Assembly (NCBI GenBank): GCA_018883785.1
Contig: JAHLFO010000132.1
Location: 1-39,710, forward strand
Direction of reading: 5' to 3'
From: Candidatus Bacteroides intestinipullorum
Lineage (GTDB): Bacteria > Bacteroidota > Bacteroidia > Bacteroidales > Bacteroidaceae
Length of the DNA stretch: 39,710 bases
Shown here: one piece after another, positions 470-27,420 of the stretch
Layout of the letters: each line of letters begins with the position of its first letter
Numbering within the stretch: the stretch's first letter is position 1
Program-made: the position numbers and the translations under genes
Notes under the pieces: generated by a model
Told to the model about the DNA's origin: nothing
The model's input: only the letters and a program-made list of their open reading frames with translations
Database searches by the model: none

Positions 470-1957
470 TTATTCAGGTTTCGTGGTTTCTTCTGCATCC
501 GGATTGAGCTTGTACATACGAATGCCACTCTTACCGTAAGCCACATAGATATACTTGCTGCCGTCGTTGAATTCTCCAGCTACCACAAAGTTACAAGAAT
601 GGCGTTCTGCGGTTTCCGTTTTGGCGGGTTGGTAATTTCCATCCTCGTCGCGCTGCGGGGCACCGTTCTCATCGTAATTCTCTACCTCGAAAGCAAAGAG
701 TTCCAATCCACCATCTTCCTTGAAGGTGTATACTCGGAGACCTTGCGAAGTGGCAGCATACAGATAGTCATCATCAGCAAAAAGACCGGTAGTGTAGGGG
801 CCATTGTTTTGCTTGTCTGCGTCCTGCGTCTGCCAGCGTACTTCTCTACCATTGTCATTAAGGTCGTGTACGCGCAGACCATTCCAACCGGCTGCCACAT
901 AGGCATACCCATCTTTCACCACCAATACGTGCTTGCCATATTTTTGAGCCTCTGTACCATCAACAAGTTCCCAGCCCAAGAATTTACCGTTCTCATCCAC
1001 TTCGTATTTCTCAGCAGAACGCTCAGAAGAGAGCAGCTTGTATCCCAAGCGGTAATTAGGGTAATGTTGCTCTTCGTCATTCAGGATAATGATAGCCTCA
1101 TCCGTATCATCGCGAAGCATATACTTGGCATCATCGGTCACATACTTACCTCCCCAATCTACTCTGGGTTTAGCATCATGCAAATTCAACTCTGCGCGAT
1201 TATTGCCCTCAGCGTCTTGATAAGGACCAGCTTCAATGTTTTCATTAAAAGTTCCAAATGTTCCAGTATAACCAGAAATGGCAATTATTTGGCCGTCTTC
1301 AGTTACAGCAGTTGCGTTTACAGAAGATCCCGGGAAGCCAATAATTTCATACTCCAGTGGAGCTGTAGATCCACTTGTAGCGGCTGATACGTCTGCACGA
1401 GCAACCCCACCTCCATTCTTAACTTGCGTACCCGAAAGGAATAAGTTATTCCCCTTCCGCATGACATGTTCAAACTTCATGTCAGTAGCGACACCCGTCG
1501 AAAGGAGTTTAGGTTGAAAGTAATCTATATCGACGCCTTCATCAGCATCCCCTTGGCTATTCTTATTTATGCTGTACACATCAAAAGCGCCACCCCACAC
1601 AGCAGGCAAAGTCCCTGTCCCAGCCTGCATGTTAGAGTGCCATGTTGCATACAGGAAACTCTTTTCTGTATCAAAATAAAGAGAAGTCACCGACCAATTA
1701 TACGCTGCTTGTGGCGTCGGTACATCCACTTTAGCCACCAAGCTCAATCTCTCACTCTTCAATGCGCGAGTTTGGGGATATACATGCACACGCCCAGCTT
1801 GGGACGCCGCATCATACATCTGCATCTCGCCAACATACTCGTTGACTTCCGGCTCTGGATCCGGAGTCGGATTTTCATTCACGACGTTGTCGTCGCTGCA
1901 AGCTGCGGTCATCATGAGGGCCGCAAAGCCTGCCAACCAATAAAACTTCTTGTTCAT
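470..1957 (-). CDS. Surface-type lipoprotein with beta-propeller-like (LVIVD-like) repeats
   Basis: The 495-residue product starts with a lipoprotein signal peptide: lysines at 3-4, a hydrophobic core, and lipobox TAAC with C20. SDDN follows, the kind of acidic stretch Bacteroidetes use to export lipoproteins to the cell surface. I chose the ATG at 1957 because it places the signal peptide at the N-terminus; an in-frame ATG exists at 2011. The body contains repeats of the form DGYAYVAAGWNGLRVHD and DDYLYAATSQGLRVYTF, and near the end YIYVAYGKSGIRMY. These resemble LVIVD or related beta-propeller blades. No catalytic motif is recognisable. It follows the hybrid kinase stop by 136 bp and precedes a strong terminator, so it is probably the last gene of the exopolysaccharide operon. 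Its GC content is lower than that of the neighbouring genes. Its role is unknown; a surface polysaccharide- or protein-binding role is a guess. Confidence 0.7.
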   Translation of the reverse strand: MNKKFYWLAGFAALMMTAACSDDNVVNENPTPDPEPEVNEYVGEMQMYDAASQAGRVHVYPQTRALKSERLSLVAKVDVPTPQAAYNWSVTSLYFDTEKSFLYATWHSNMQAGTGTLPAVWGGAFDVYSINKNSQGDADEGVDIDYFQPKLLSTGVATDMKFEHVMRKGNNLFLSGTQVKNGGGVARADVSAATSGSTAPLEYEIIGFPGSSVNATAVTEDGQIIAISGYTGTFGTFNENIEAGPYQDAEGNNRAELNLHDAKPRVDWGGKYVTDDAKYMLRDDTDEAIIILNDEEQHYPNYRLGYKLLSSERSAEKYEVDENGKFLGWELVDGTEAQKYGKHVLVVKDGYAYVAAGWNGLRVHDLNDNGREVRWQTQDADKQNNGPYTTGLFADDDYLYAATSQGLRVYTFKEDGGLELFAFEVENYDENGAPQRDEDGNYQPAKTETAERHSCNFVVAGEFNDGSKYIYVAYGKSGIRMYKLNPDAEETTKPE

Positions 1958-2093: not shown

Positions 2094-3407
2094 CTACAGG
2101 AACACAAACGCCTGGCGGAGCAGGGTTTCCACGCGCTTGCGCAGTTGCAGTGTGTTCACCGGTTTGGACATGTACGAATTCATGCCGCTGTTCAGGATGC
2201 GCTCCTCGTCTGATGCGTAGGCATAGGCGGTGAGCGCCAATATGGGTACGTCCGTAGAGAGTTTGCGGATTTCGCGGGTGGCCTCGTAGCCGTCCATCAC
2301 GGGCATGTTGATGTCCATCAGGATGAGTTGCGGATGGCACTGGCTGAACATGTCCACCGCCTCGCGTCCGTTCCAAGCGTGATAGAGGTTGTAGTCCTTG
2401 GAGAGGATGGCCTTTATCAGCTTGTAGTTGCTCTCGTTGTCTTCCGCCACGAGGATGTTGACCCGCTGCGAAGCAGGGAGCGCCGCCTTCTGGCTCTGTG
2501 TCTTCGGCTGTGCCTGCTCCTTGGCTGGCCGGTAGGGAATGTCGAACCAGAAGGTCGACCCCCTGCCCGGTTCGGACTCCACGCCGATCTGCCCGCCCAA
2601 GGTTTCGGCTATGCTCTTGCAGATGGAGAGGCCGAGGCCCGTGCCCTGCTTGTGCGAACTGAGCTTGACGAAGCGGTCGAAGATGTCCTTCTGCCGTTCC
2701 GGGGCGATGCCGCAACCCGTGTCCTTCACCTGGAAGTGTAACAGGTCGCCCCGCCGTTCGTAGCCGAAGCTGACCGTGCCCCGCTCTGTGAACTTCAGGG
2801 CGTTGGTCAGCAGGTTGGTGATGAGCTGCGTCAGGCGGTTGCGCTCGGAATGTATCATGCACGATTCCATGCCTGTGGTGTAGGACAGCGTGACGGGCTT
2901 CTCCTCGGAGGTAAGACGCAGCTGCATGGCGTCGTAGATCTCCTTCATCAACTTGTTCAGGTCGAAGTCCGTGTAGGTGAATTCCACCGTGCCCGCCTCT
3001 ATCTTGGAGAGGTCGAGGATGTCGTTCACCAGCTGTAGCAGCAAGTCGCTGTTGTTCTCGATGATGTGGACATACTCCGTCCGTTCTTCCTCGGTCCCTG
3101 CATGGACCAGCAGCTCGCTGAAGCCCACGATGGCACTGAGCGGCGTGCGTATCTCGTGGCTCATGTTGGAGAGGAAGGACGACTTCAGTCGGCTGGACTC
3201 TTCGGCTTGCCGCTTGGCCTCCCGCAGTTGTTCCTCCAGTGCCTCGGCAACCTCCACCTTCTTGTTCAGCTCGCGGAGCTCTTCTTTCTCCTTCTCCTGC
3301 AACTTACGCAGGCTGTTGAGGGTGCGCACACGCCACAGCAGGAAGACGATGACCGCACCCAGAAGCACAGCCAAGCATACCAGCAAGATAGTTGTCGTCG
3401 TCATCAT
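2094..3407 (-). CDS. Hybrid sensor histidine kinase/response regulator
   Basis: 437 residues. A single N-terminal membrane segment (about 6-26) has no periplasmic sensor domain. A coiled coil (about 30-75) follows, then a HisKA domain with phosphoacceptor H84 in NMSHEIRTPLSAIVGFSELL. The HATPase domain carries an N box (about 190-205, NLLTNALKF), a G1 box DTGCG at 229-233, and GTGLGL at 255-260. A C-terminal receiver (about 316-435) has acidic residues ED at 322-323, phosphoacceptor D365 in LMDINMPVMDG, and K415. All catalytic residues are intact. With no extracellular domain it probably senses through the membrane or takes its signal from partners. It follows the response regulator gene by 59 bp in the same operon. 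The output is probably phosphotransfer to the upstream receiver protein (inference). Confidence 0.92.
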   Translation of the reverse strand: MMTTTTILLVCLAVLLGAVIVFLLWRVRTLNSLRKLQEKEKEELRELNKKVEVAEALEEQLREAKRQAEESSRLKSSFLSNMSHEIRTPLSAIVGFSELLVHAGTEEERTEYVHIIENNSDLLLQLVNDILDLSKIEAGTVEFTYTDFDLNKLMKEIYDAMQLRLTSEEKPVTLSYTTGMESCMIHSERNRLTQLITNLLTNALKFTERGTVSFGYERRGDLLHFQVKDTGCGIAPERQKDIFDRFVKLSSHKQGTGLGLSICKSIAETLGGQIGVESEPGRGSTFWFDIPYRPAKEQAQPKTQSQKAALPASQRVNILVAEDNESNYKLIKAILSKDYNLYHAWNGREAVDMFSQCHPQLILMDINMPVMDGYEATREIRKLSTDVPILALTAYAYASDEERILNSGMNSYMSKPVNTLQLRKRVETLLRQAFVFL

Positions 3408-3466
3408 AGTTCCGTATATGTATATATCACGTTAACGTCATCAATTCTCTTCATCAACCGTGGTGC

Positions 3467-4483
3467 TTATTGTCCCATCTGGAGCAACACCTGGAAGTGG
3501 CACTGACCGTCAGGGGTCTGCTCGTAAGTCACGGCGCCATTCATCTTCAAGGCCACCTCCAAAGCCAGGGCTACGCGGAAGTCGGTGTCCAGCTTCGCCT
3601 TGCCGTCCGGGGTGCAGGCAATGAGGATGTTGGCCAATCCTCCGTCCACGCTGCCGCTGACGGTTATGGCTCCCTTGCCCAACTGGCAGGCACAGGACAA
3701 CAGGTTGGTGAAGACCGCCTTGAGCAATAGAGGGTCTGCCATCACGTGAATCTGTCCGGCCAGCTTCACGTTCCACTTGACCTTGCGGGCTTGTGCCGCC
3801 GGGGCCAGCAGGCTGATGACGTAGTCCAAGCTGTCGTTCACCGACAGGCGTTCGGTCTTCATCTCCAGGTCCTGCACGCGCTGCGCCGCCCAGCCCACGA
3901 GGCTCTCGGACGTGTGGTCCCGCAAGGCGTAGAGGCTCTCGTCGACGAGAGACAGCGGCATGGAGAGTGCCAGGTCGCCCAAGTGGCGTGCCAGGTTGTC
4001 CTCGCCACAGCAGGCCATGCCTGCCAGCAGACGGATGGCGGCATCCCATCCCAGTCCGGCCTCGGTCTTTTGCTCCTTATCCTTCCGCTTGCTCTTCGAG
4101 AGGTTAATCTGGGTGATGATACAGTTCACGATGTGCTCCTGGATGAAGGGCTTCGTGATGAATTCGTTGGCACCGGCCTCCAGGCCCGTCTTGATGTCGG
4201 TATCCGAGTTCAATGCAGAGAGCATGATGACAGGGATGTCGGCCGTATCGGGATTGGACCGTATGGCACGTGTCGCCTCAAATCCGTTCATGCCCGGCAT
4301 GAGGATATCCATCAGGATGATGTCCGGCCGTGTACGGGTCAGCAAATCCAAAGCCTGCTGTCCGCTGTTGGCACTCACGACGTTGAATTTTAGTTTCGAG
4401 AGCATTCCCTTCACCAGCAGGATATTGGTCGGAATGTCATCCACCACCAGCACGGTGTATTTCGAGTAATCCGTTTCGTTCAT
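3467..4483 (-). CDS. Response regulator with degenerate histidine-kinase-like C-terminus
   Basis: 338 residues. Residues 9-125 are a complete receiver: DD at 15-16, phosphoacceptor D59 in LMDILMPGMNG, S89 in the MLSA motif, and K111 in TKPF. The rest (about 140-338) has no DNA-binding domain. It looks like a decayed kinase core. Helices around 150-225 sit where a dimerisation domain would be. LLLKAVFTNLLSCACQLGKG (252-271) imitates an N box but lacks the Mg-binding asparagine pattern. The DxGxG motif is replaced by TPDGKAKLD, and there is no GTGLGL. I infer loss of ATP binding and a protein-protein output. It lies between the dehydrogenase (35 bp) and hybrid kinase genes. Confidence 0.85.
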   Translation of the reverse strand: MNETDYSKYTVLVVDDIPTNILLVKGMLSKLKFNVVSANSGQQALDLLTRTRPDIILMDILMPGMNGFEATRAIRSNPDTADIPVIMLSALNSDTDIKTGLEAGANEFITKPFIQEHIVNCIITQINLSKSKRKDKEQKTEAGLGWDAAIRLLAGMACCGEDNLARHLGDLALSMPLSLVDESLYALRDHTSESLVGWAAQRVQDLEMKTERLSVNDSLDYVISLLAPAAQARKVKWNVKLAGQIHVMADPLLLKAVFTNLLSCACQLGKGAITVSGSVDGGLANILIACTPDGKAKLDTDFRVALALEVALKMNGAVTYEQTPDGQCHFQVLLQMGQ

Positions 4484-4518
4484 AATTGTACGCGCTTAGT
4501 TCCTAATAAACTTATTCA

Positions 4519-5790
4519 CTACAAATAATAGTCTGCATCGGGCAGCACGTTCATGGCATCGAACAGGATGCCGTGCTCCTTCAGCAGCGGGCGGAGAGGT
4601 ATGGACAAGAACTCCTTGTGGGCCACGCAAAGGATGATGGCGTCAAACTCGCCCTTGTGTTCCTCCAGATTGTCCAGCAGGTGGATGCGGTAGCGCTGCG
4701 CCACTTCCTCGGGCCTGACAACGGGGTCGTAGACCGATACATGGTCGGTGACGCGGCGCAGGCAGCTGTACACATCCTCCACCTTGGTGTTGCGCGTGTC
4801 GGGACAGTTGGCCTTGAAGGAAAAACCCAGTATCAGCAGCCGCGAATCCACCACGTGCAACCGCCGCTCCATCATGCACTTGGTCAGCACGCCGGAGACA
4901 AAGTGGGCCATGTTCTCGTTGATGACGCGGGCCTCCATGATGAGGCGGGGATAGACGTTGTAGGCCCATGCCCCGTGGATCAGGTAGTAGGGGTCTACAC
5001 CGATGCAATGGCCGCCCACCAGCCCCGGGCGCACGTTCAGGAAGTTCCACTTGGTGGAGGCGCAGTCCAGCACTTCGGTGGTGCTGATGCCCATGGCGCG
5101 GAAGACGGTGCACAGTTCGTTCATCAGGGCGATGTTCACGTCGCGCTGAGTGTTCTCCACCACCTTGGCGGCCTCGGCCACACGGATGGACGACGCACGG
5201 CAGGTGCCGTTGGTCAGCACGGAGTTATACAGCCGCTCCACGAAGTCGAGGGTGTCCGGTGTGGAGCCGGAAACGATCTTGGTGATGTTCTCCACGGTAT
5301 GTTCACGGTCGCCGGGATTGATGCGCTCGGGCGAGTAGCCCACGTAATAGTCCGCGTTGAAGGTCAGTCCGGACCTGCCACTGAGCATCGGCACACAGAT
5401 TTGCTCGGTGCAACCGGGGAAGACGGACGATTCGTAGATCACGACGTCGCCTTTCTTCAACAATCCGCCTACAGTGGCACTGGCCATCCTCAGCGGGGTA
5501 AGGTCGGGATTGTTGTCATCGTCCACAGGCGTGGACACGCAAATGACGTATACATTGCAGTCGCGCAGGTCTTCGGTATCGGTGGTTAGCCGCAGGTTGT
5601 TCTTCAAGCGGTCTTCCAGCGTGGCGGCGTCCACCTCGCCAGTCACGTCATAAGCATTCAACAGTTGATCCACACGCTCACTGCAGATTTCCAAGCCATC
5701 CACACGATACCGCTTGGCAAAGAGGCAGGCCAGCGGCAATCCCACATAGCCCAATCCTATAATCCCGATTCTGATGTTCTCAATCTCCAT
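4519..5790 (-). CDS. UDP-N-acetylhexosamine 6-dehydrogenase family (WbpO/TviB-like nucleotide-sugar dehydrogenase)
   Basis: 423 residues, the normal length. The NAD-binding Rossmann motif GLGYVGLP is at 12-19. The central dimerisation helix carries KVVENTQRDVNIALMNE (209-225). The catalytic loop is GGHCIGVDPYYL (259-270) with nucleophile C262. The GHCIGVDPYYL form is typical of dehydrogenases acting on UDP-GlcNAc, UDP-GalNAc or UDP-ManNAc, whereas UDP-glucose enzymes usually carry GGxCFPKD. The C-terminal UDP-binding domain (about 310-423) contains LGFSFKANCPDTRNTK. The reaction would be the NAD-dependent four-electron oxidation of C6 to a uronate. The gene lies 106 bp after the glycosyltransferase in the same orientation, so it probably supplies the charged sugar for that enzyme. 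The exact sugar cannot be fixed from sequence. Confidence 0.9.
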   Translation of the reverse strand: MEIENIRIGIIGLGYVGLPLACLFAKRYRVDGLEICSERVDQLLNAYDVTGEVDAATLEDRLKNNLRLTTDTEDLRDCNVYVICVSTPVDDDNNPDLTPLRMASATVGGLLKKGDVVIYESSVFPGCTEQICVPMLSGRSGLTFNADYYVGYSPERINPGDREHTVENITKIVSGSTPDTLDFVERLYNSVLTNGTCRASSIRVAEAAKVVENTQRDVNIALMNELCTVFRAMGISTTEVLDCASTKWNFLNVRPGLVGGHCIGVDPYYLIHGAWAYNVYPRLIMEARVINENMAHFVSGVLTKCMMERRLHVVDSRLLILGFSFKANCPDTRNTKVEDVYSCLRRVTDHVSVYDPVVRPEEVAQRYRIHLLDNLEEHKGEFDAIILCVAHKEFLSIPLRPLLKEHGILFDAMNVLPDADYYL

Positions 5791-5896
5791 AATATTCTCT
5801 AATCTACCGGTCGTTTGTTGTTTTATCTATTTTTTCTTCTCTCTTTGTTTGTTTCTCTCCATCGTGGTTCTTCTCATCGTATCGCTGCGTTTCTCC

Positions 5897-7216
5897 CTAT
5901 GCCCGCTCCAGCTGCGCCCAGACGGACGACTTGCGGGGGTTCCACGGGTCGCGGTAGGACGTGAAGAAGAACAGCTCGCTGGTATGCGCCCACAGTCTCG
6001 CCAAGCGCAGGTAGTAACCGTTGTAGAGCGACACGAGGGGCAAGTAGGCGAAGAGGTAAAGCTCTTCCCTGCGACGCTCGGTCACGATCATCACGATACC
6101 GAACGCTATCAGCGAGAAGCAGTAGCGGATGAAGAAGCCCAGGAATACCACCTCGAAGAAGTGATTGTTCTGCGTCAACACCAGGTTGATGATGTAGATC
6201 AGCCAGACGTAGTTCAGCACCGAGTCGTAGACAATGCTCTCCAGGTTCGACAGGAAGTTGAGCGTGGAGAAGTTGCGGTTGGGCAACAGGATGTCGCGGT
6301 GCTTGCGCAGGCGGAAACGCACGAGCGACTTGGACCAGCGCAGACGTTGTTTGAACAGGTTGACCCACGAAGTGGGCACGCTGGTCATGCACACGGCATT
6401 TCCGGCAAAGTGTACCTTCCAGCCTGCCTTGCGTATCTTCTGCGTGATGTCGCCGTCCAGTCCCGGGCCGATGTCCCAGTACCCTATCTGACGGAGGACC
6501 TTCGTATCGAACGCGCCGAACGCTCCAGAGATGATGTGGTAGATGCCCAGCGTACTGGTGACGGTGCGACCCACCATGATGGTCTTCAGATATTCCAACG
6601 CTTGGAGGGAGGTACAGATGGTGTCCTTGTCGTTGCGCACCTTGACGCATCCGCCCACGGCCTTGATGTTGGGGTCGAGGTAGAAGGGCAGGAGGATCTT
6701 CTCTATCGCGTCACGGTCCAAGGAAGAGTCGGCATCGAGATGCACGACATATTTCCCCCGGGCATAGTAGGCGCCGAAGTTGGCTGCACTGGCTTTGCCG
6801 CCACGCACGTTCAGGCGAAGGTAGCGGCTGATGAGGCCGCGGCGCTCCAGGTCGGTATATATCTGTGGCGTGGTGTCGTCCGAGCCGTCATCCACGATGA
6901 TGATTTCAAAGTTCTTGTACGTCTGCTCCTGTAGCGACTTGAGCAAGGCGTAGATATGCTCACCTTCGTTCTTACCGGGCACGAGGATGCTGACCAGCGG
7001 ATTGTCCTTGCGGAGCGACACGGTGGCCTGCTCGTCGGCGCGCACGATGGACTTCCACGTGGCGCAGCGGTAGAGCGTCACAAGGATCTCTGCCAGGTAG
7101 TAGCGCGGAAACTCGATGAAGAACAGGAACCAGTAGGTGTTCAGGATGCTCGAGATAGACAAACCCTCCAGGTAGGTCACAAACGTATCCAGCGTGTCGA
7201 AGATGTAGTTCATCAT
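5897..7216 (-). CDS. Processive family 2 glycosyltransferase (Alg8/HasA/PgaC-like polysaccharide synthase)
   Basis: 439 residues from the ATG at 7216, which has AAGGAGG 7 bp upstream and overlaps the previous stop as ATGA. One membrane segment lies near 28-47. The GT-A core has DD at 109-110 (VDDGSDD), the metal-binding DAD at 161-163, the presumed catalytic aspartates in GLDGD at 252-256, and QRLRW at 290-294, the QxxRW signature of processive synthases. About three membrane segments follow (near 327-347, 353-378, 385-404). This architecture polymerises a UDP- or GDP-sugar at the inner membrane while threading the chain outward. No PilZ domain is present. The next gene makes a UDP-sugar uronate, so a uronate-containing polymer is plausible. 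Sugar specificity is not deducible here. Confidence 0.9.
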   Translation of the reverse strand: MMNYIFDTLDTFVTYLEGLSISSILNTYWFLFFIEFPRYYLAEILVTLYRCATWKSIVRADEQATVSLRKDNPLVSILVPGKNEGEHIYALLKSLQEQTYKNFEIIIVDDGSDDTTPQIYTDLERRGLISRYLRLNVRGGKASAANFGAYYARGKYVVHLDADSSLDRDAIEKILLPFYLDPNIKAVGGCVKVRNDKDTICTSLQALEYLKTIMVGRTVTSTLGIYHIISGAFGAFDTKVLRQIGYWDIGPGLDGDITQKIRKAGWKVHFAGNAVCMTSVPTSWVNLFKQRLRWSKSLVRFRLRKHRDILLPNRNFSTLNFLSNLESIVYDSVLNYVWLIYIINLVLTQNNHFFEVVFLGFFIRYCFSLIAFGIVMIVTERRREELYLFAYLPLVSLYNGYYLRLARLWAHTSELFFFTSYRDPWNPRKSSVWAQLERA

Positions 7217-9357
7217 AGGCCGTCCTCCTTTCGCTTGCCTTGCGCGATCCACACCTTGTCGAGCCCTTCATTACGCACGAAAGCTTCACATTGTGCGGGA
7301 TCGGTGGAACAATAGGGCGACACCACGTAGAAGCTGCCATGCTTGTAGAGGCGGTATGCGTAGCCGGGCCGCGCCTCGGCATTCTTGTGCAGCTGCCACT
7401 CGGCATTTTCCCGCCACGTGAAGGCTCCTTCCACTACATAGTACATGCCTTTCCGGGTCTCTTCGAGTACCGGTTCGGCGGCGGTTGCTTCCGTCTTCAC
7501 GGCCTGTGGTTCTTCCGGCGCTTCGAGTTGGAGTTCTCCCGTCTCCTCCGTCCACATGGCCGAGTCGGTTCTCTCTACCGGCGTTTCCGCGAGAGCAGTA
7601 TCGGCAGACATAGTTTCTTCGGCCTCCCCAATGAGCAAGTAAGGTTCTTCCTCCTCCATCTCCGGTGTGTACCAGAGGAAGGAGAGCAAGGCAACTACAG
7701 CTCCTATGGCAAGCAGGATGACAACACCTCTGAGGAGAGAGGAACCGTTGCTGCGCGGAGTGTCTTTCTTGTTCTCCCCGTCAGCGGGTTCTTCATCCAC
7801 CGGTTCCGCGAACCCGGCATGTTCTGTTTCATCGGCCGGGTAAGCGACGGGCTCGACCGGCCTCGGACTCTCTGGCACAGCATCTTCCGGCATGGCTCCG
7901 ATGGACGCCTTAGCTTCCTGCGGTGTCTCCTCTTCCGCCTGCCGATAGGGGAAGGTCCGTTTCGGGAAGGGCGAGGTGAAATAGAGGTTGTTGGTAAACT
8001 CCTCCATGTCCCCCTCATAGCGCGACACGGCATAGCAAATCCGTTCGTCGGGCGCGATGGTCGTGGCAGCCTTGCTCAGCACGACATCCAGGCGGGCGGT
8101 CAGCTCATCGCTGGGGATATTCTCCTCATTGTCGCTGGCATAGACCGAATTGCGGATATACACCATATTGTTGGCCGAAGAGACCTTGTGCGTGGGAAAA
8201 CGCTTGCACAACAGGGAGATGAAGTCCGGATTGAGCGGACAGGATTCTTCCTGGCTGTTCAGCACCCACACTTTCACCACCACGATGTCGGCATCGGTGC
8301 TGCCTGCGCTTTTCAGGTTGGACAGCAGCCGCAGGCGGGCCATGAAGCGGTCGAACTCCATATAGTTGTCATAGAAGTCGGTGTAGACCGTGAAGCCGAT
8401 GTTGGGCGACACGATAGCCTTGCAGCCTTCGGGAGTAACTTCGAAGGCGGTGACGTCATAGGGGGTCAGACCGGTGACATCGGACCGATTGCCACAGGTG
8501 GTGCAGACGGCCGACATGCTCGGCTGGACGAAGGTCTCCTCACAATTGGAGCAGGTGTACACCACGGACGGACGGTCGTAGTCCACCCCGATGTGGCGCA
8601 GCAACTGATGGCACTTGGGACAACGGAGCTGCCCGCCAAAGTTATAAGTATGTTCCGGCGATATATTGGCACAGCGGAAGTGATGAATGACCTCCTCGCT
8701 CTTAATGTCCGAGCTGTGGCAATGCGGACAGTTCTCTATATATAATAGGTGACTGTGCAGGCACTTGGGGCACAGGTATATTTTGTTGATGAACTGCACA
8801 GGACGGATGTATCCCTTCTCCACCATCGATTGGTTGAAGATGATGTACTCGTTGAGGCTGTAAGCACCCTGGCGGTAGAACAGCTCGAAGAGGGGAATGG
8901 AGTAGCCCATGGCAGAGAGGTGGTTCAGCTCAGGCGTCAGGTTGTAAACGCGTCGCGAGATGAGGTAGCGGTACAGTCGGACGAAGAACAGGTTGCCGGA
9001 GAGGACGTCGTTGTCGTCCGGCTGCAGGTCGATGGACTCGATGTGGGTGATGATCTCCTCCACCGTGTCGAGCGTTTCGGCATCATCAATGTCGTAGGTG
9101 TAGCAGTCCACCAGTTCGTCGTATTCGTCCAGCTGGCCTTTCAAGTCACGGGACAGGAGGAAAGGCTTATAGCAGCACTTGCGCGAGGTAACCGGATTGA
9201 TGACATTCAGAATGGCCTTAGCCTCATCGGGGGATGAAGTAAAGACAAACACGGCATCAAACATCTCACGCAGGAAGTCGTTACTGTCTTCCAGATTAAA
9301 TGCGCTGTCGAAGATGAGGATGCGCCGTTGCCGTTTGTTGTTCTGAATGGTAATCAT
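7213..9357 (-). CDS. TackOD1-like zinc-ribbon protein with one membrane span and a C-terminal SPOR domain
   Basis: 714 residues. Residues 11-90 resemble a receiver fold without its catalytic pattern (RRILIFDSAF, then FDAVFVFTSS). Residues 190-290 hold six cysteine motifs: CPKC 196-199, CPHC 210-213, FRC 229, CPKC 246-249, CSNC 269-272, CTTC 285-288. They surround HIGVDYDRPS (255-264), which I recognise as characteristic of the TackOD1 (thaumarchaeal output domain 1) family. Residues about 325-460 form an alpha/beta region that could be a degenerate GGDEF-type fold (uncertain). An acidic, proline-rich linker precedes a single membrane helix (about 541-563). A second acidic linker follows, then a SPOR-like domain (about 637-707, MYYVVEGAF ... 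SFYVVSPY). The zinc part would be cytoplasmic and the SPOR part periplasmic. It overlaps its neighbours by ATGA at both ends, so it is co-translated with the adaptor and synthase. The role is inferred to be a scaffold or regulator of the synthase. Confidence 0.82.
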   Translation of the reverse strand: MITIQNNKRQRRILIFDSAFNLEDSNDFLREMFDAVFVFTSSPDEAKAILNVINPVTSRKCCYKPFLLSRDLKGQLDEYDELVDCYTYDIDDAETLDTVEEIITHIESIDLQPDDNDVLSGNLFFVRLYRYLISRRVYNLTPELNHLSAMGYSIPLFELFYRQGAYSLNEYIIFNQSMVEKGYIRPVQFINKIYLCPKCLHSHLLYIENCPHCHSSDIKSEEVIHHFRCANISPEHTYNFGGQLRCPKCHQLLRHIGVDYDRPSVVYTCSNCEETFVQPSMSAVCTTCGNRSDVTGLTPYDVTAFEVTPEGCKAIVSPNIGFTVYTDFYDNYMEFDRFMARLRLLSNLKSAGSTDADIVVVKVWVLNSQEESCPLNPDFISLLCKRFPTHKVSSANNMVYIRNSVYASDNEENIPSDELTARLDVVLSKAATTIAPDERICYAVSRYEGDMEEFTNNLYFTSPFPKRTFPYRQAEEETPQEAKASIGAMPEDAVPESPRPVEPVAYPADETEHAGFAEPVDEEPADGENKKDTPRSNGSSLLRGVVILLAIGAVVALLSFLWYTPEMEEEEPYLLIGEAEETMSADTALAETPVERTDSAMWTEETGELQLEAPEEPQAVKTEATAAEPVLEETRKGMYYVVEGAFTWRENAEWQLHKNAEARPGYAYRLYKHGSFYVVSPYCSTDPAQCEAFVRNEGLDKVWIAQGKRKEDGL

Positions 9358-10514
9358 AAGTTATTGTCTCCTTCCTGATAAATGCTATCTGACGGAACTA
9401 CTTGGTTATTTTCTCGGATCTCCAGAATGCGGCTGGCGAATTCCTCGTCCTCCGCCTGGAAATTATTGGTACGCACACGTACGGGCAGGTTGTCCGTCAG
9501 CACCCAGAAGGGCACTTGCTGACCGGGCAAGAACGTAAAGTAGGCAATCACCGCATCGATATCGTGCGCGAAGTTGCTCACCAGGTGCTTGGGAATCTCC
9601 TCCACGCGCATGCCGAGCAAGGACAGCCTCGCCTTGAGGGTGATGTCGTCGTTGACAATGATCTCCACGTTGCCTTTCTTGTTGATGTACTTCACCTTGT
9701 TGCTCGGGATATAGGCAATCACGCCCAGGTTGCACGCGGCATAGTCATCGTGCTGTAGGTCGATGATGCCCTCCTTGTGGAAGACCACGGTTTCTTCGGC
9801 CACCTTGATGTCCGTCACGACGGCATCCTTAGGGGCGCAGGCATACTTCACGAGATACTGGCTCACGTTGTTCCCGCCCGGCGCATTGGGCAAGAAGTCC
9901 GTCCCGTAGCCCGACTGGAGCAGATCCTTGGAGGCCTTGGCGGCCATGCGCCGATAGATGGCTATCTTGCGGTACAGCTCCTTCAGCCGTTCCTCCACCT
10001 CTTTGCGCTCGGCCTGCAGCATCAGCTTCTGCGTATTGTCGGTCACGCCGTAGTAGACGTCATTCTCCTCATTCTTCAGGCGCTTATCCAGCTCTTGGAG
10101 GCGTACCCGCAGGACGGGCACCTCGGCAGCGGCCAGCTCGGCCTGCACTTGCATTTTGTGATAGTCACCCACCATGCCCGGCACGGCGATGACATTCTGA
10201 TGCTCCAGCAAGTTGTCTATCAGCACGTAGGAGTAGAGGGTATCCCCAGCTTCCACCCGGTCGCCCACTTCTTTATATATGCGTAATACGAAGAGGTCAT
10301 CCACCGCCCGCATGTTGTTCTGGTCAAGCTTGATGTAGCCGTCATAATAGGTGTAGACCACGCGCCGCACCACGTAGATGGCAAGTATGAGCAACACGGC
10401 GGCAAAGATGCAACCGAAGACAATCTGCTGCTTGCGCAGGCGCTTCTTGCGACTGAGCAGGACTTCCTCCACGCTCATCTGCTGGGGTTCGGTGTTATAA
10501 CTGAAATTCTTCAT
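9354..10514 (-). CDS. HlyD-like membrane fusion (periplasmic adaptor) protein
   Basis: 386 residues. A basic N-terminal cytoplasmic segment is followed by one membrane helix (about 31-51). The first lipoyl half contains VGDRVEAGDTLYSY (83-96). A helical hairpin spans about 119-200 and is short compared with HlyD. The second lipoyl half is at about 225-253 (DAVVTDIKVAEETVVFHKEG). A beta-barrel region follows (about 255-350). This order is that of HlyD/AcrA adaptors and of the C-terminal part of Alg44. The gene overlaps the TolC-like gene upstream (ATGA, 10511-10514) and the zinc-ribbon gene downstream (9354-9357). It should bridge the inner-membrane synthase to the outer-membrane duct. No ABC or RND pump, the usual partners, is encoded nearby. 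Confidence 0.87.
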   Translation of the reverse strand: MKNFSYNTEPQQMSVEEVLLSRKKRLRKQQIVFGCIFAAVLLILAIYVVRRVVYTYYDGYIKLDQNNMRAVDDLFVLRIYKEVGDRVEAGDTLYSYVLIDNLLEHQNVIAVPGMVGDYHKMQVQAELAAAEVPVLRVRLQELDKRLKNEENDVYYGVTDNTQKLMLQAERKEVEERLKELYRKIAIYRRMAAKASKDLLQSGYGTDFLPNAPGGNNVSQYLVKYACAPKDAVVTDIKVAEETVVFHKEGIIDLQHDDYAACNLGVIAYIPSNKVKYINKKGNVEIIVNDDITLKARLSLLGMRVEEIPKHLVSNFAHDIDAVIAYFTFLPGQQVPFWVLTDNLPVRVRTNNFQAEDEEFASRILEIRENNQVVPSDSIYQEGDNNL

Positions 10515-11890
10515 CTTGTCATCTCCTTAGTTTGTATCAGGGCGGCCATGTCCGGGCAACCCGTTGCCTCCTGTAGCTCCAGCAGGCAGAGTGCACGACG
10601 GCGCAGGAGGTCGTAGGTACGCTCCAAACTTCGCAGGAACTCGTTGTACTCCTCCAGACGGGCGATGTGGTTGTAGCCGCCTTGGCTGTTCACATAGCCT
10701 TCCGTGCGGATGTCGATGAAGCGGCGCAACAGGGCGACGTGCCGTTGCTCGGAGGCAAGGGCGGTGTTCAATTGACCCAGCTGTGCAATGAGCCGCCGAC
10801 ACTCCGTGGTCACGGTTTCCGTCAGCTTCTCCCTGCCCAGAGCGGTGAGTGCCTGTTCGGTGCGCATGGCCTTGCGCTTGGCCGAGGCGTCGCCGTAGAA
10901 AGGGAAAGTGAAACGCGCGCCCACCTCCATGTTGGTGGACGAGCCGAGAGTGGTGCGCAGGTAGTGGGATACCCGCACAAAGGGAGTGAGGCGCAGCTGA
11001 TGCGCATAGTTGGTGACTTTGATTTGTGCGCCAAGGATTTCCTCGCGCACCCGCGATTCGCGGATTTGCAGGTGGCTGTCCTCCAGGGCGCCCAGCAGGC
11101 GGGCGGTGTCCAGTTCCACCCAGAGCGGTTGCAGGACGCGTACCTCCTCACCGGATGCGTCCGCGGGCATTCCCGTCTGGGCAAACGCATGCTCGATGCG
11201 CATCTTTTCACTACCCGCCTCCAGCAGCTTGTCATTGCTGGCGCGGTCGGTCTCGAGCACATAGAGGTAGGCCATGCTCAGCACCTCGTTGTTGAGCAAC
11301 TGCTCGCGCAGCACGGCGGCCGTCAGACGGTTGTAGCGCTGCTCGATGGCTTCGCGCGCATCGTCCCACAGGGGGCGGGCGTTCTGCCGCAGGTGATGCA
11401 GGCGGTCGGCCTGATTGTTCAGACTGATGAGGCGCAACTGTGGTTTCCGTTGCAGGAAAGAGCTATTAAAGAGGTTCCATCCCAGTTCGCCTTGGAATTT
11501 GGCCTTATAGCGAGAATACTGGTCGTCTTCGTCAAAACCCAGCTGATCGTCCAGCCGGTAGTAAGCCTGCCCCGTCAATTCCAGACCATGTTTCCGCTTA
11601 AAGGCTTTGCGCTCGTAGGCTTCCTTCGCCTCGAACGCGGAGTCTACCTGCTGCATGTGCGGGGTGTCTGCAAAGAGCAGGGCGCGATCCACCTCCACGT
11701 CGCTCCGCATCAGGGAGTCAAGCACGACGAAGCGGCGGCCGAAGGCTGCAATGATACTGTCGTGATTCAACCCCCGGATTTCCCACGCCTTGGCACCCCG
11801 AACCTTCTGTTCGGTCTGGGCAAGGACAGAAACCCCGGACAGCAGGAGCACAGCAACCCACAGAATACTAAAGAAAAATAAGCGTTTCAT
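10511..11890 (-). CDS. TolC-family outer membrane efflux/secretion protein
   Basis: 459 residues from the ATG at 11890, chosen because it begins MKRLFFF and gives a clean signal peptide ending at about A24 (VSVLAQ). A longer in-frame reading from 11962 would bury that signal. The mature protein is mostly long amphipathic helices (regions near 110-270 and 330-440) with TolC-like internal duplication: alternating coiled-coil segments and short strands such as QLRLTPFVRVSHY and GARFTFPFYG that suit the two halves of a 12-stranded beta-barrel. It is the first gene of the operon, preceded by a good promoter at 11984-12016, and overlaps the adaptor gene by ATGA. It should form the outer-membrane and periplasmic duct for the polymer or for an associated factor. 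Confidence 0.82.
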   Translation of the reverse strand: MKRLFFFSILWVAVLLLSGVSVLAQTEQKVRGAKAWEIRGLNHDSIIAAFGRRFVVLDSLMRSDVEVDRALLFADTPHMQQVDSAFEAKEAYERKAFKRKHGLELTGQAYYRLDDQLGFDEDDQYSRYKAKFQGELGWNLFNSSFLQRKPQLRLISLNNQADRLHHLRQNARPLWDDAREAIEQRYNRLTAAVLREQLLNNEVLSMAYLYVLETDRASNDKLLEAGSEKMRIEHAFAQTGMPADASGEEVRVLQPLWVELDTARLLGALEDSHLQIRESRVREEILGAQIKVTNYAHQLRLTPFVRVSHYLRTTLGSSTNMEVGARFTFPFYGDASAKRKAMRTEQALTALGREKLTETVTTECRRLIAQLGQLNTALASEQRHVALLRRFIDIRTEGYVNSQGGYNHIARLEEYNEFLRSLERTYDLLRRRALCLLELQEATGCPDMAALIQTKEMTR

Positions 11891-11983: not shown

Positions 11984-12016
11984 CAAAGATACCTAAAAAA
12001 ACAGCGAAATCGCAAA
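11984..12016 (-). promoter_or_regulatory. Promoter of the exopolysaccharide operon
   Basis: On the minus strand, TTTG (12016-12013), a 21-bp spacer and TATCTTTG (11991-11984) match the Bacteroidetes -33/-7 consensus. The start of transcription would be near 11976, leaving an 86-nt leader before the TolC-like ATG at 11890. The leader contains GGGGAGGGG but no clear hairpin. Confidence 0.8.
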
Positions 12017-12402: not shown

Positions 12403-14502
12403 ATGAAAAGACTGATTTATTCCATTTTGATGGGATTACTCTTGTGGCCGGGCGCACCATTCCACCTCCATGCACAAAACAATCCCTTCAAGATCCACGA
12501 TTCGATTTATATCGAATACAAGGAGTTGCGGAAGCAAGTGACCTCGCCGGAAATCGTCGAGAAGGCAAAGGCCCTCTCAGCGAAAGCCCGTGTATTGGGC
12601 GACAAGAAGGGGGAATGCGTAGCCCTGACCATCACGGTGATCAATGCCTTCTATGGGAGCGACTCCCTCCAGCTCGTGAAGGCCGTACAACATTTGCAGC
12701 AGGTGTCGAGGGCGAACGGTTACCTGCAATACTACTACTATGCCTACAATGATTATGTTTATTGGCTTTTGAATCACAACCACACGCTGAAGGCGCTACA
12801 AGCGGCCGAACAGATGCAACGCCAGGCGGACAAGGACAAGAACGACTACGGCATCTACTCGTGCCTGAAGGCGCAAGGCTACATCTACTACACCCGCCGC
12901 GACCTGCCCAACGCCATCCGATACCACAAGGAAGCCCTGCAATACCAGCTGGCCTATATGCCCGAACAGGACGCCTCGCTGAACTATGGCCGCCTGGCCG
13001 ACCTGCACCGACAAGCCAAACAACTGGACAAGGCCATGCAATATGCCGAGAAAGGCATCAAAGTGGCCAAGACCGACACCAACCGCAAACGGGTGATGCT
13101 GGAGAAGTGCAAACTACTGTTCGAGATGGGACGCGAGGACGAATTCATGCAGTACTATGCACAATGCCAGGAGGAGATGGCCCGGTCGGGGAAAGCCAGC
13201 AACAATACCCTGAAAATCTTGGACTGCTATGTGCACATCATCCAAGGAGATTATGAAGCCGCCAAGAAGCGCGCAGGCAAGTACTACAAGCTACAGTGCC
13301 TGATTGCCGAGCGGAGCGGCGACTATAAGTCGGCTTACGAGTACAGCCGGAAGCTGGCCGACCTGAACGACTCCGTGATCCGCCAGATCCAGACGTCCGA
13401 CCTGGCCGAACTGACCGTGCAGCTCAGCAACGAACGCATGAAGCGAAAAGCCATGGACCTGGAAGCGAAGAACATCGCCCTGAACCTGTCCAACATGAAC
13501 CTCAAGCTGGAGCAAGCCAAGGCAGAAACCGAACTGGAGAAAATCAATGCGGAAAATAACGCACTTGCCTTGAAGAACCGTACGCTGGAATTGGAGCAAG
13601 TCAACACGGAGATGCAGCGGCAGCAGGATATCCTGGAGGAAGAAAAACTTCTCTCGCGCAACCGGTATATCATATTCGGCATCCTGACCATATCCCTGGT
13701 TGTGTTCATTTGCATGCTTTGCCTATACCTTTATCGCCGACGGCTGATGGTGAACCGGTTGAGGAAGAAGAATCTGGAGCTGGCCGTGGCGCGCGAACAG
13801 GCCGAAGAATCCAACCGCATGAAGACCCTGTTTATCCACAACATGAGCCATGAGATACGTACCCCGCTGAATGCTATCGTAGGATTCTCGCAACTGTTGG
13901 CCACTTCTGATTCGGATTTCAGCGAGAGCGAGAAAAATGAATTCAGCCATATCATCCTGCACAATTCCGAATTGTTGACCACGTTGGTCAACGACATCTT
14001 GGATCTGGCTGGTTTGGAAAGCGAGAAATACGTGGCGCATATCGCACCTTGCCGTTGCAACGACGCTTGCCGCATGGCTATGGATGCCGTGCGGCACCGG
14101 GTGCCGGAAAGCGTAGGATTGCGCTTTCTCACGGAAGTGCCCGATGAATACACATTGGATACGGACGAGTCACGTTTGAAGCAAGTGCTCATCAACTTCC
14201 TGACCAATGCCGTGAAATTCACGCAGACAGGAGAAATTGTCGTGGGATGCTCGCTTTCGGAAAAGCCGGGCAACATCGTGTTTTCCGTGGCTGATACCGG
14301 CCCCGGCGTGCCGCCCGACAAAGTGGATATCATATTCAATCAGTTCACCAAGGTGGATTGCTTCAAGCAAGGCACCGGATTGGGCTTGAATATCTGTCGT
14401 AATATCGCTCAAATCCTGAATGGCGAGGTGACCTACGACCACACCTATACAAAGGGGGCCCGTTTTCTCTTCATCCTCCCGGTGGAGAGAAAAAAAGCGT
14501 AA
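12403..14502 (+). CDS. TPR-containing periplasmic sensor histidine kinase
   Basis: 699 residues. A signal peptide (about 1-24, cleavage near LHAQ) is followed by a periplasmic region of helical repeats (about 30-320). These fit tetratricopeptide repeats, for example GYIYYTRRDLPNAIRYHKEA and LADLHRQAKQLDKAMQYAEK. A long coiled coil (about 330-418) leads into one membrane helix (about 422-445). The HisKA domain has H483 in NMSHEIRTPLNAIVGFSQLL. The HATPase domain has an N box around 592-606 (INFLTNAVKF), DTGPG at 631-635 and GTGLGL at 657-662. There is no receiver, so it must signal to a separate one. The orphan receivers of the divergent operon at 3467 and 2094 are the obvious candidates (inference). 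Confidence 0.92.
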   Translation: MKRLIYSILMGLLLWPGAPFHLHAQNNPFKIHDSIYIEYKELRKQVTSPEIVEKAKALSAKARVLGDKKGECVALTITVINAFYGSDSLQLVKAVQHLQQVSRANGYLQYYYYAYNDYVYWLLNHNHTLKALQAAEQMQRQADKDKNDYGIYSCLKAQGYIYYTRRDLPNAIRYHKEALQYQLAYMPEQDASLNYGRLADLHRQAKQLDKAMQYAEKGIKVAKTDTNRKRVMLEKCKLLFEMGREDEFMQYYAQCQEEMARSGKASNNTLKILDCYVHIIQGDYEAAKKRAGKYYKLQCLIAERSGDYKSAYEYSRKLADLNDSVIRQIQTSDLAELTVQLSNERMKRKAMDLEAKNIALNLSNMNLKLEQAKAETELEKINAENNALALKNRTLELEQVNTEMQRQQDILEEEKLLSRNRYIIFGILTISLVVFICMLCLYLYRRRLMVNRLRKKNLELAVAREQAEESNRMKTLFIHNMSHEIRTPLNAIVGFSQLLATSDSDFSESEKNEFSHIILHNSELLTTLVNDILDLAGLESEKYVAHIAPCRCNDACRMAMDAVRHRVPESVGLRFLTEVPDEYTLDTDESRLKQVLINFLTNAVKFTQTGEIVVGCSLSEKPGNIVFSVADTGPGVPPDKVDIIFNQFTKVDCFKQGTGLGLNICRNIAQILNGEVTYDHTYTKGARFLFILPVERKKA

Positions 14503-27095: not shown

Positions 27096-27127
27096 TTTGC
27101 AGATTTCCCCACAACCTCCTATCTTTG
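27096..27127 (+). promoter_or_regulatory. Promoter of tRNA-Gln
   Basis: TTTG (27096-27099), 20-bp spacer, TATCTTTG (27120-27127), followed by CA: a near-perfect Bacteroidetes promoter about 30 bp upstream of the mature tRNA. Confidence 0.85.
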
Positions 27128-27156: not shown

Positions 27157-27227
27157 TGGACTATGGTGTAATGGTAGCACAACAGATTTTGGTTCTGTTT
27201 GTCCAAGTTCGAATCTTGGTAGTCCAA
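27157..27227 (+). tRNA. tRNA-Gln (anticodon TTG)
   Basis: A 71-nt cloverleaf. The acceptor arms TGGACTA (27157-27163) and TAGTCCA (27220-27226) are followed by discriminator A. The anticodon stem ACAGA/TCTGT encloses loop TTTTGGT with anticodon TTG. The T arm is CCAAG/CTTGG around TTCGAAT. CCA is not encoded. Single tRNA with its own promoter and terminator. Confidence 0.96.
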
Positions 27228-27257
27228 CCTCATTTCAAAATCCATTCCCCCTCCGAA

Positions 27258-27389: not shown

Positions 27390-27420
27390 CAAAGGTACGG
27401 CTTTCTGGCATATCTGCAAA
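27390..27420 (-). promoter_or_regulatory. Promoter of the candidate small RNA
   Basis: On the minus strand: TTTG (27420-27417), 19-bp spacer, TACCTTTG (27397-27390). The palindrome TGTTATATAACA (27440-27451) lies 20 bp upstream and may be an operator. Confidence 0.78.

Follow-up and report, generated by a model that had tools for sequence, protein, structure and literature searches.

How can a glycan made by a membrane synthase be exported when the genes beside the synthase encode an adaptor and an outer-membrane channel and no pump? This question is raised by a stretch of 39,710 nucleotides (nt) from Candidatus Bacteroides intestinipullorum, referred to here as the window, in which the gene set studied lies at 2094-11890 on the minus strand. 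It encodes, in order, a TolC-like channel, a HlyD-like adaptor, a protein with a TackOD1 zinc ribbon, a GT2 glycosyltransferase, a dehydrogenase, a receiver protein and a hybrid kinase, followed by a propeller-like lipoprotein. The gene content, the conserved linkage, the catalytic motifs and the finding of no pump beside the operon are the observations from which we proceed. Judged from the sequences, this is likely to be a synthase-dependent exopolysaccharide operon of the Mxd type that brings its own conduit through the envelope.

Conservation of the gene set and search for a linked pump

The core genes encode a TolC-like outer-membrane channel protein of 459 amino acids (aa; 10511-11890), a HlyD-like periplasmic adaptor of 386 aa with one N-terminal transmembrane (TM) candidate (9354-10514), a TackOD1 protein of 714 aa (7213-9357) and a PgaC/IcaA-like GT2 membrane synthase of 439 aa (5897-7216), all on the minus strand. 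An earlier note on this DNA had placed the TolC-like, HlyD-like, zinc-ribbon, GT2 and dehydrogenase genes here in one orientation, with ATGA overlaps across the first four. All five genes are indeed at those places, and inspection of the DNA confirmed three such overlaps, which couple the TolC and HlyD, HlyD and TackOD1, and TackOD1 and GT2 genes. The dehydrogenase gene starts after a gap of 106 nt from the GT2 gene.

The cassette recurs across Bacteroidota. At the phylum level TackOD1 was matched by Pfam in 13 of 296 genomes, 10 of them over the cut-off; the three matches below it (L011-L013) lie outside the locus counts. The window TackOD1 protein was found in 5/119 genomes of the genus and 30/301 of the family, its own genome counted, and the flanks were read in 21 of the 29 other positive genomes at the family level. 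Its four named matches are from 'Candidatus Bacteroides pullicola', 'Ca. Bacteroides merdigallinarum' and two uncultured Bacteroides. A further search gave 13 positive genomes among 128, four of which were new and lie outside the neighbourhood counts. The cassette was present in all 11 loci over the TackOD1 cut-off at the phylum level (the window and L021-L030) and in all five genus-level loci (the window and L031-L034). A search centred on the GT2 returned 13 loci in 12 of 395 phylum genomes, and TolC, HlyD and TackOD1 genes accompanied the GT2 in every one.

Altogether, 30 GT2-bearing loci carried TolC, HlyD and TackOD1 genes in all 30 cases, the propeller family in 25 and the dehydrogenase in 18, with the core on one strand and close together; some contigs stop close to the cassette, and a missing propeller or dehydrogenase gene may then be an artefact. 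The four core genes are directly consecutive in 26 of these loci, counting six in which a receiver-like open reading frame (ORF) separates HlyD from TackOD1. In L021-L024 the dehydrogenase gene occupies that position, joined in L022-L024 by the propeller gene, and in L079 the GT2 is divided into two ORFs. Pairwise identities of the four core proteins correlate (r 0.88-0.96, species phylogeny uncontrolled) over 28 loci, L079 and L080 being omitted. The co-occurrence of TolC, HlyD, TackOD1 and GT2, which the earlier note proposed to look for in Bacteroidota without an ABC or RND partner, is conserved in 30/30 loci.

We looked for a pump by scanning ORFs of at least 60 aa for Walker A and signature motifs in the window and 38 loci, which returned only seven SufC-like ORFs and one ABC-F-like ORF (L076); the SufC-like ORFs, all in loci that have TackOD1 only, served as the positive control. 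None of the 28 membrane-rich ORFs outside the core exceeded 900 aa, and the eight scanned by Pfam matched a Na/H exchanger, DctM, AI-2E, a Na/Ca exchanger, EamA, Na/Pi and MutS, with one unmatched. By these motif and length criteria no ABC or RND exporter lies beside the cassette in the 30 loci, where some stretches are short and the search covered the stretches rather than whole genomes. No gene for an energised inner-membrane pump, of the kind used in type 1 secretion or in RND and ABC tripartite systems, was found beside the operon.

In a complementary search, the TackOD1 protein was compared by tblastn with plasmid records; 18 matched, 15 bacterial and 3 archaeal, all of which were read (for the Photobacterium plasmid, one of two places). 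The GT2 gene follows TackOD1 in 14 of the 15 bacterial records, with one small ORF between them in Alisedimentitalea; the fifteenth (Aeromonas, H22) is cut off where its record ends, and the GT2 is seen in H23, a record equal in length from the same species with the same protein. Assigned by annotation or Pfam, HlyD is present in 12 of the 14 clusters (Plesiomonas, three Phyllobacterium, two Aminobacter, Rhodobacteraceae M382, Alisedimentitalea, Roseibium, Palleronia, Photobacterium and Aeromonas). In the two Methylocystis clusters the third gene is annotated 'hypothetical', and the one scanned gave weak lipoyl and M23 matches only. TolC was found in three clusters (Aeromonas and both Methylocystis), and no pump gene within any of the 14, in line with the expectation that homologues would not be routinely accompanied by an ABC or RND pump. 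Seven plasmid GT2s compared with that of the window scored 142-236 bits. The TackOD1 and GT2 genes are neighbours in Bacteroidota, Alphaproteobacteria and Gammaproteobacteria; of 13 annotated plasmid loci, 10 have the two overlapping. A Halorussus plasmid (L140:6046-9007) has TackOD1, DUF2334 and GT2 genes in a row, with no HlyD beside them. On a mobilizable Aeromonas caviae plasmid (L142:6521-12343), the genes for a TackOD1-GGDEF protein, a GT2, a TolC with a GH18-like C-terminus and a HlyD lie near partition and toxin-antitoxin genes.

Identity of the encoded proteins

The window GT2 carries DDGS (109-112), DAD (161-163) and QRLRW (290-294). Across 29 aligned GT2 sequences, the window included and the split GT2 of L079 left out, neither DDGS, DxD and QRxRW nor the D254/D256 acid site varies. 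Its best NCBIfam model is PgaC_IcaA (172.9 bits, 1e-50, against an equivalog cut-off of 422.3), which is also the best model for the GT2s of six scanned relatives, all below that cut-off, while NodC is among the matches at 66 bits in the window and 99 bits in Phyllobacterium. The closest alignment, as had been anticipated, is thus with the processive PgaC/IcaA family and not with non-processive transferases. Family-averaged hydropathy points to one membrane candidate at the N-terminus and three at the C-terminus; an extra peak within the catalytic domain is probably no membrane segment. The protein appears synthase-like, and its likeness to PgaC suggests that it may be processive and translocate its product. 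The nucleotide-sugar 6-dehydrogenase (4519-5790, minus strand) has TviB as its best NCBIfam model (442 bits, below the cut-off of 592), and GGHCI is kept in 18/18 dehydrogenases. Since the gene occurs in 18 of the 30 loci, a uronate polymer is not intrinsic to the system.

The TolC-like and HlyD-like labels of the window proteins come from relatives to which profiles link them, and some of these relatives exceed the OEP or HlyD_3 cut-off while others do not. The window sequences have no match of their own in Pfam or NCBIfam, and none that convinces in a PDB search by sequence only; a profile of the relatives' HlyD reached EmrA (0.00084) and lipase C (0.0085) in PDB, alongside tektins. When the ORFs of the fetched loci were searched with iterated profiles, both window proteins grouped with proteins from other classes. 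Pfam OEP (cut-off 22 bits) was reached by three of seven scanned TolC family members (L024, 24.5 bits; L026, 44.5; L109, 22.0) and missed by the window, L028, L073 and L083; HlyD_3 (cut-off 22.2 bits) was reached by two of five HlyD members (L024, 33.8 bits; L026, 22.8), with L029 and L073 below it and the window unmatched. Profile-profile comparison (hhalign) joined the two branches of the TolC family at 98.7% (E 2.9e-16) and those of HlyD at 99.7% (E 4.3e-26), and the distant Bacteroidota HlyD set to proteobacterial HlyD at 99.8%.

A GH18-like C-terminus extends the TolC-like channel in 8 of the 30 loci, and the Aeromonas TolC bears the same domain (31.7 bits). Seven of these eight loci are without the dehydrogenase, an association among related loci and not a test. 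Genes of 690-730 aa upstream of HlyD were considered as ABC exporters and rejected, as they encode TolC-like proteins with this C-terminus.

The zinc ribbon of the window TackOD1 protein spans residues 127-306 of 714 (Pfam, 3.4e-48), with a TM candidate at about 537-555. Its N-terminus aligns with receiver-like ORFs of relatives and is probably a degenerate receiver-like region; in L025, L026, L027, L029, L030 and L110, an ORF of about 110-130 aa resembling it stands between HlyD and TackOD1. The protein had been described as combining a zinc ribbon with SPOR. The zinc ribbon is borne out, whereas the SPOR-like C-terminus of the window protein went undetected by Pfam and is seen through alignment only. 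Among five TackOD1 proteins of the window's branch, Pfam left three unmatched for SPOR and placed two below the cut-off (L032, 0.0012; L086, 0.006). SPOR is clear on HlyD instead in L029 (3e-9), L034 (4e-12) and L075 (4e-8). A SPOR domain on HlyD in some loci and a SPOR-like end on the TackOD1 protein in others would be expected of partners.

The TackOD1 proteins of L026 and Roseibium include fused receiver domains, and a receiver gene adjoins TackOD1 in L073, L111 and all nine TackOD1-only loci. In the window, one of the two receiver proteins that had been reported is a receiver-domain protein with an additional C-terminal region (3467-4483, minus strand; Pfam Response_reg, 5.7e-29); the other proved to be a hybrid HisKA-HATPase-REC histidine kinase of 437 aa (2094-3407, minus strand; Pfam). 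The kinase orthologues in L031 and L033 are 710 aa long, match from window residue 57 onward and differ in their sensor parts. A Pfam scan found no GGDEF in the window TackOD1 protein and a weak match in that of L026 (0.0084). GGDEF is over the cut-off in the TackOD1 proteins of Plesiomonas, Aeromonas and Photobacterium, and those of Phyllobacterium, Roseibium and Rhodobacteraceae M382 were scanned without a match.

The beta-propeller-like lipoprotein gene (470-1957, minus strand, with a possible upstream start at 2011), which the earlier note had missed, probably belongs to the operon; its family is linked in 25 of the 30 loci. The protein has no Pfam match; it contains MTAAC, presumably a lipobox-like motif, and among the relatives scanned only L073 (0.046) and L078 (0.0017) gave weak LVIVD matches, both below the cut-off. 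One relative (L022:12273-14237) has a C-terminal DUF4114 domain, and longer ones (L073, L083) carry an additional N-terminal region.

Ahead of the TolC gene, at about 95 nt from its start, lies a site, TTTG-N21-TATCTTTG (11984-12016, minus strand), that resembles promoters of the Bacteroides type (consensus TTTG/TAnnTTTG); the pattern has three matches in the window against 0.18 expected from shuffles. The other two promoter-like sites, at 27096-27127 (plus strand) and 27390-27420 (minus strand), flank a tRNA-Gln gene (27157-27229). A divergent TPR sensor kinase (12403-14502, plus strand; Pfam) is linked to the operon by neighbourhood only, and its orthologues adjoin the operon in L031, L033 and L086.

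Proposed mechanism and alternatives

These data are consistent with a plausible mechanism of GT2-HlyD-TolC export. The GT2 would polymerise a glycan, probably containing N-acetylhexosamine, on the cytoplasmic side and, given its likeness to PgaC, may pass the chain through its own membrane domain. The HlyD-like adaptor would connect it to the TolC-like channel, through which the polymer would leave. Since the linkage is constant and without a linked pump, this conduit may take the place of a porin of the PgaA, AlgE or BcsC type. The TackOD1 protein would be the regulatory subunit corresponding to MxdA, and TackOD1 with receiver domains is likely to act as a switch: phosphorylated receivers, fused or neighbouring, could turn synthesis on or off, replacing or joining cyclic di-GMP (c-di-GMP). 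In the window's lineage the dehydrogenase would add a uronic sugar, and the propeller-like lipoprotein may act at the surface or in the periplasm. The idea that the GT2 is itself the exporter, with HlyD/TolC standing in for the porin, therefore keeps its support from the PgaC-like GT2 and the lack of a linked pump, while its claim to be categorically new does not survive.

Several observations weigh against this reading. The operon is known here from its genes alone, with polymer, complex and activity all predicted, and about four TM candidates in the GT2 are few for a pore. The 30 loci are related rather than independent, five coming from the window's genus and two (L021, L029) from one genome. 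TolC genes are absent from the stretch read in 11 of the 14 plasmid clusters, where the PLSDB gene table is incomplete, and in two of the three archaeal records the 6 kb on either side of TackOD1 contain no glycosyltransferase. Since the channel part of the Aeromonas protein goes unmatched by the Bacteroidota TolC profile, recruitment of a TolC partner may have happened repeatedly. AlphaFold2 models built from 5-sequence alignments were unusable (predicted local distance difference test scores of 46.0 for TolC and 40.8 for HlyD). The GH18-like domain is matched weakly by Pfam GH18 in three of eight cases, L026 being below the cut-off, and a PDB search with its profile returned nothing convincing. 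MxdA, MxdB and MxdC were compared by description, and the mxd descriptions, as excerpted, do not mention TackOD1 in MxdA. Finally, in the genus g152 the cassette is present in two of the 11 fetched loci (L073, L111), and the other nine (L064-L072) have TackOD1 with an adjacent receiver and no GT2, HlyD or TolC beside it; a GT2 orthologue occurs in 2 of 18 g152 genomes, the other 16 having no match better than 4e-14. TackOD1 is therefore not tied to the export system: it works elsewhere too, whereas the GT2 of this type was always found with TackOD1.

The g152 loci lend themselves to another explanation, in which the TackOD1 protein, the receiver and the kinase signal on their own account and lie beside polysaccharide genes by operon economy only. 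We regard this as unlikely, since TackOD1 keeps its place next to the GT2 across the three groups named above, with the two genes mostly overlapping on plasmids, and since its likely counterpart MxdA is described in the mxd literature as required for both aggregation and biofilm. It could also be supposed that the GT2 is non-processive and produces a glycan, short or lipid-linked, for the decoration of a partner such as the propeller-like lipoprotein, with HlyD/TolC secreting or placing the product. The small number of TM candidates, the NodC matches (NodC being an oligomer maker) and the frequent linkage of the lipoprotein family would suit this account, which is nevertheless very improbable given that PgaC_IcaA outscores NodC in the window and in the six relatives.

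The HlyD/TolC pair might instead serve an ABC, RND or MFS pump encoded elsewhere that exports protein, lipid or drug, the GT2 glycan being unrelated. Other HlyD/TolC pairs are established partners of pumps; the window genome is 83.7% complete, and our pump search covered the neighbourhoods of the loci. A divergent MFS-HlyD-outer-membrane set adjoins both Methylocystis clusters, although it has its own HlyD and outer-membrane genes, and ABC genes occur in the stretch but outside the cluster in three plasmid records (H2, H7 and H14), where they are annotated as substrate-binding, permease or glycine-betaine genes and not as exporters. The Aeromonas cluster has TolC, HlyD and GT2 together without a pump gene, several lineages carry a GH18-like domain on the channel itself, and the GT2 linkage is constant across several classes with no linked pump found. 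Taken together, these findings make a pump encoded elsewhere quite unlikely.

With GT2-HlyD-TolC export as the preferred reading, the chances seem about even that TackOD1-GT2-HlyD(-TolC) represents a class of systems for glycan secretion, widely distributed in Bacteroidota and Proteobacteria and as yet without a name, defined by a dedicated HlyD-TolC conduit, a phospho-receiver switch acting via TackOD1 and, in several lineages, a glycosidase-like domain on the channel. The TackOD1-GT2 core is also present in a haloarchaeon, an organism that lacks an outer membrane, where HlyD/TolC do not adjoin it; Mxd would be the sole member of the class to have been studied. Because the synthase, HlyD and TolC genes occur together in all 30 loci, gene deletions in a culturable host could put the synthase-HlyD-TolC model directly to the test. 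The operon also points to a way in which Bacteroidota could govern polymer secretion through phosphorylation of receivers. The orphan TackOD1 domain, described in the 2018 text excerpted (PMC5847659) as an output domain of archaeal response regulators with obscure function, gains a concrete role to test.

Comparison with known systems

The arrangement had been put forward as a distinct system, a claim that is not supported, since BgsBA (GT2 and HlyD), XcsAB-TolC (GT2, HlyD and TolC, as proposed) and mxdABC, which the TackOD1-GT2-HlyD order resembles, precede it. In the parts consulted of PMC9495663 and PMC7902896, the rhizobial mixed-linkage glucan synthase BgsBA is a bicistron of a GT2 and a HlyD-like protein; it differs in its CESA_CelA-type GT2 with a c-di-GMP-binding C-terminus, and no TackOD1 or TolC is part of the operon described there. 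A 2025 review (PMC12430437, in part) presents the cyanobacterial XcsA-XcsB-TolC model of cellulose secretion (Maeda 2018), whose genes are not in one operon and for which experimental validation is lacking, and calls it open whether the model applies to operon-organised clusters. The window and the 30 loci share its pattern of synthase, HlyD-like adaptor and TolC-like channel with no pump, although in that system the synthase is a cellulose synthase with PilZ and the genes are scattered, whereas those of the window form one operon; neither PilZ nor cellulose synthase is among the Pfam and NCBIfam families listed for the window GT2. The Pga/Ica systems for poly-N-acetylglucosamine share the best GT2 model, yet the window GT2 is not a PgaC equivalog (172.9 of 422.3 bits), and no Pga porin, deacetylase or PgaD was found by Pfam and NCBIfam among nine window proteins scanned.

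The archaeal TackOD1 response regulators share the Pfam domain and receiver-TackOD1 fusions, and the excerpts of PMC5847659 describe no link to polysaccharide. In the text examined of a review of tripartite systems (PMC8277102), 'glycosyltransferase' and 'cellulose' do not occur, and none of the titles and abstract openings among the matches listed ties TackOD1, Mxd or HlyD-TolC synthase export to Bacteroidota.

The closest likeness is with mxdABCD of Shewanella oneidensis, which the excerpts of PMC3691769 describe as a putative exopolysaccharide cluster, with MxdB similar to a membrane type II glycosyltransferase and MxdC to an efflux pump. According to the same excerpts, mxdA and mxdB mutants are aggregation-deficient and mxdB mutants form no three-dimensional biofilm. 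Flat biofilms of mxd mutants are reported among PMC3691769, PMC7666153, PMC3409153 and PMC11395469, and MxdA binds c-di-GMP and interacts with CheY3 (PMC7666153, PMC11395469), again as these sources were available in part. In mxd, a degenerate-GGDEF regulator that contacts a CheY receiver is placed first, followed by a membrane GT2 and an efflux-pump-like protein, and the operon is needed for biofilm formation. Set against these descriptions, the window GT2 is of the synthase type, as in the membrane-bound synthase role given to MxdB, and the HlyD-like adaptor, identified by profiles, stands beside it as the efflux-like MxdC does. The window differs in its extra TolC, dehydrogenase, propeller-like lipoprotein and kinase and in the lack of a GGDEF match, and mxdD has no stated counterpart there. 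The two operons are bridged by the plasmid loci of Plesiomonas and Photobacterium, whose order (TackOD1-GGDEF, GT2, HlyD) fits the mxd description, and by that of Aeromonas, in which TolC precedes HlyD. MxdA is very probably a TackOD1-type protein. New relative to these systems are the operon-encoded TolC, the link between TackOD1 and receivers, the fusion of the channel to a glycosidase-like domain, the propeller-like lipoprotein and the wide distribution of the module.

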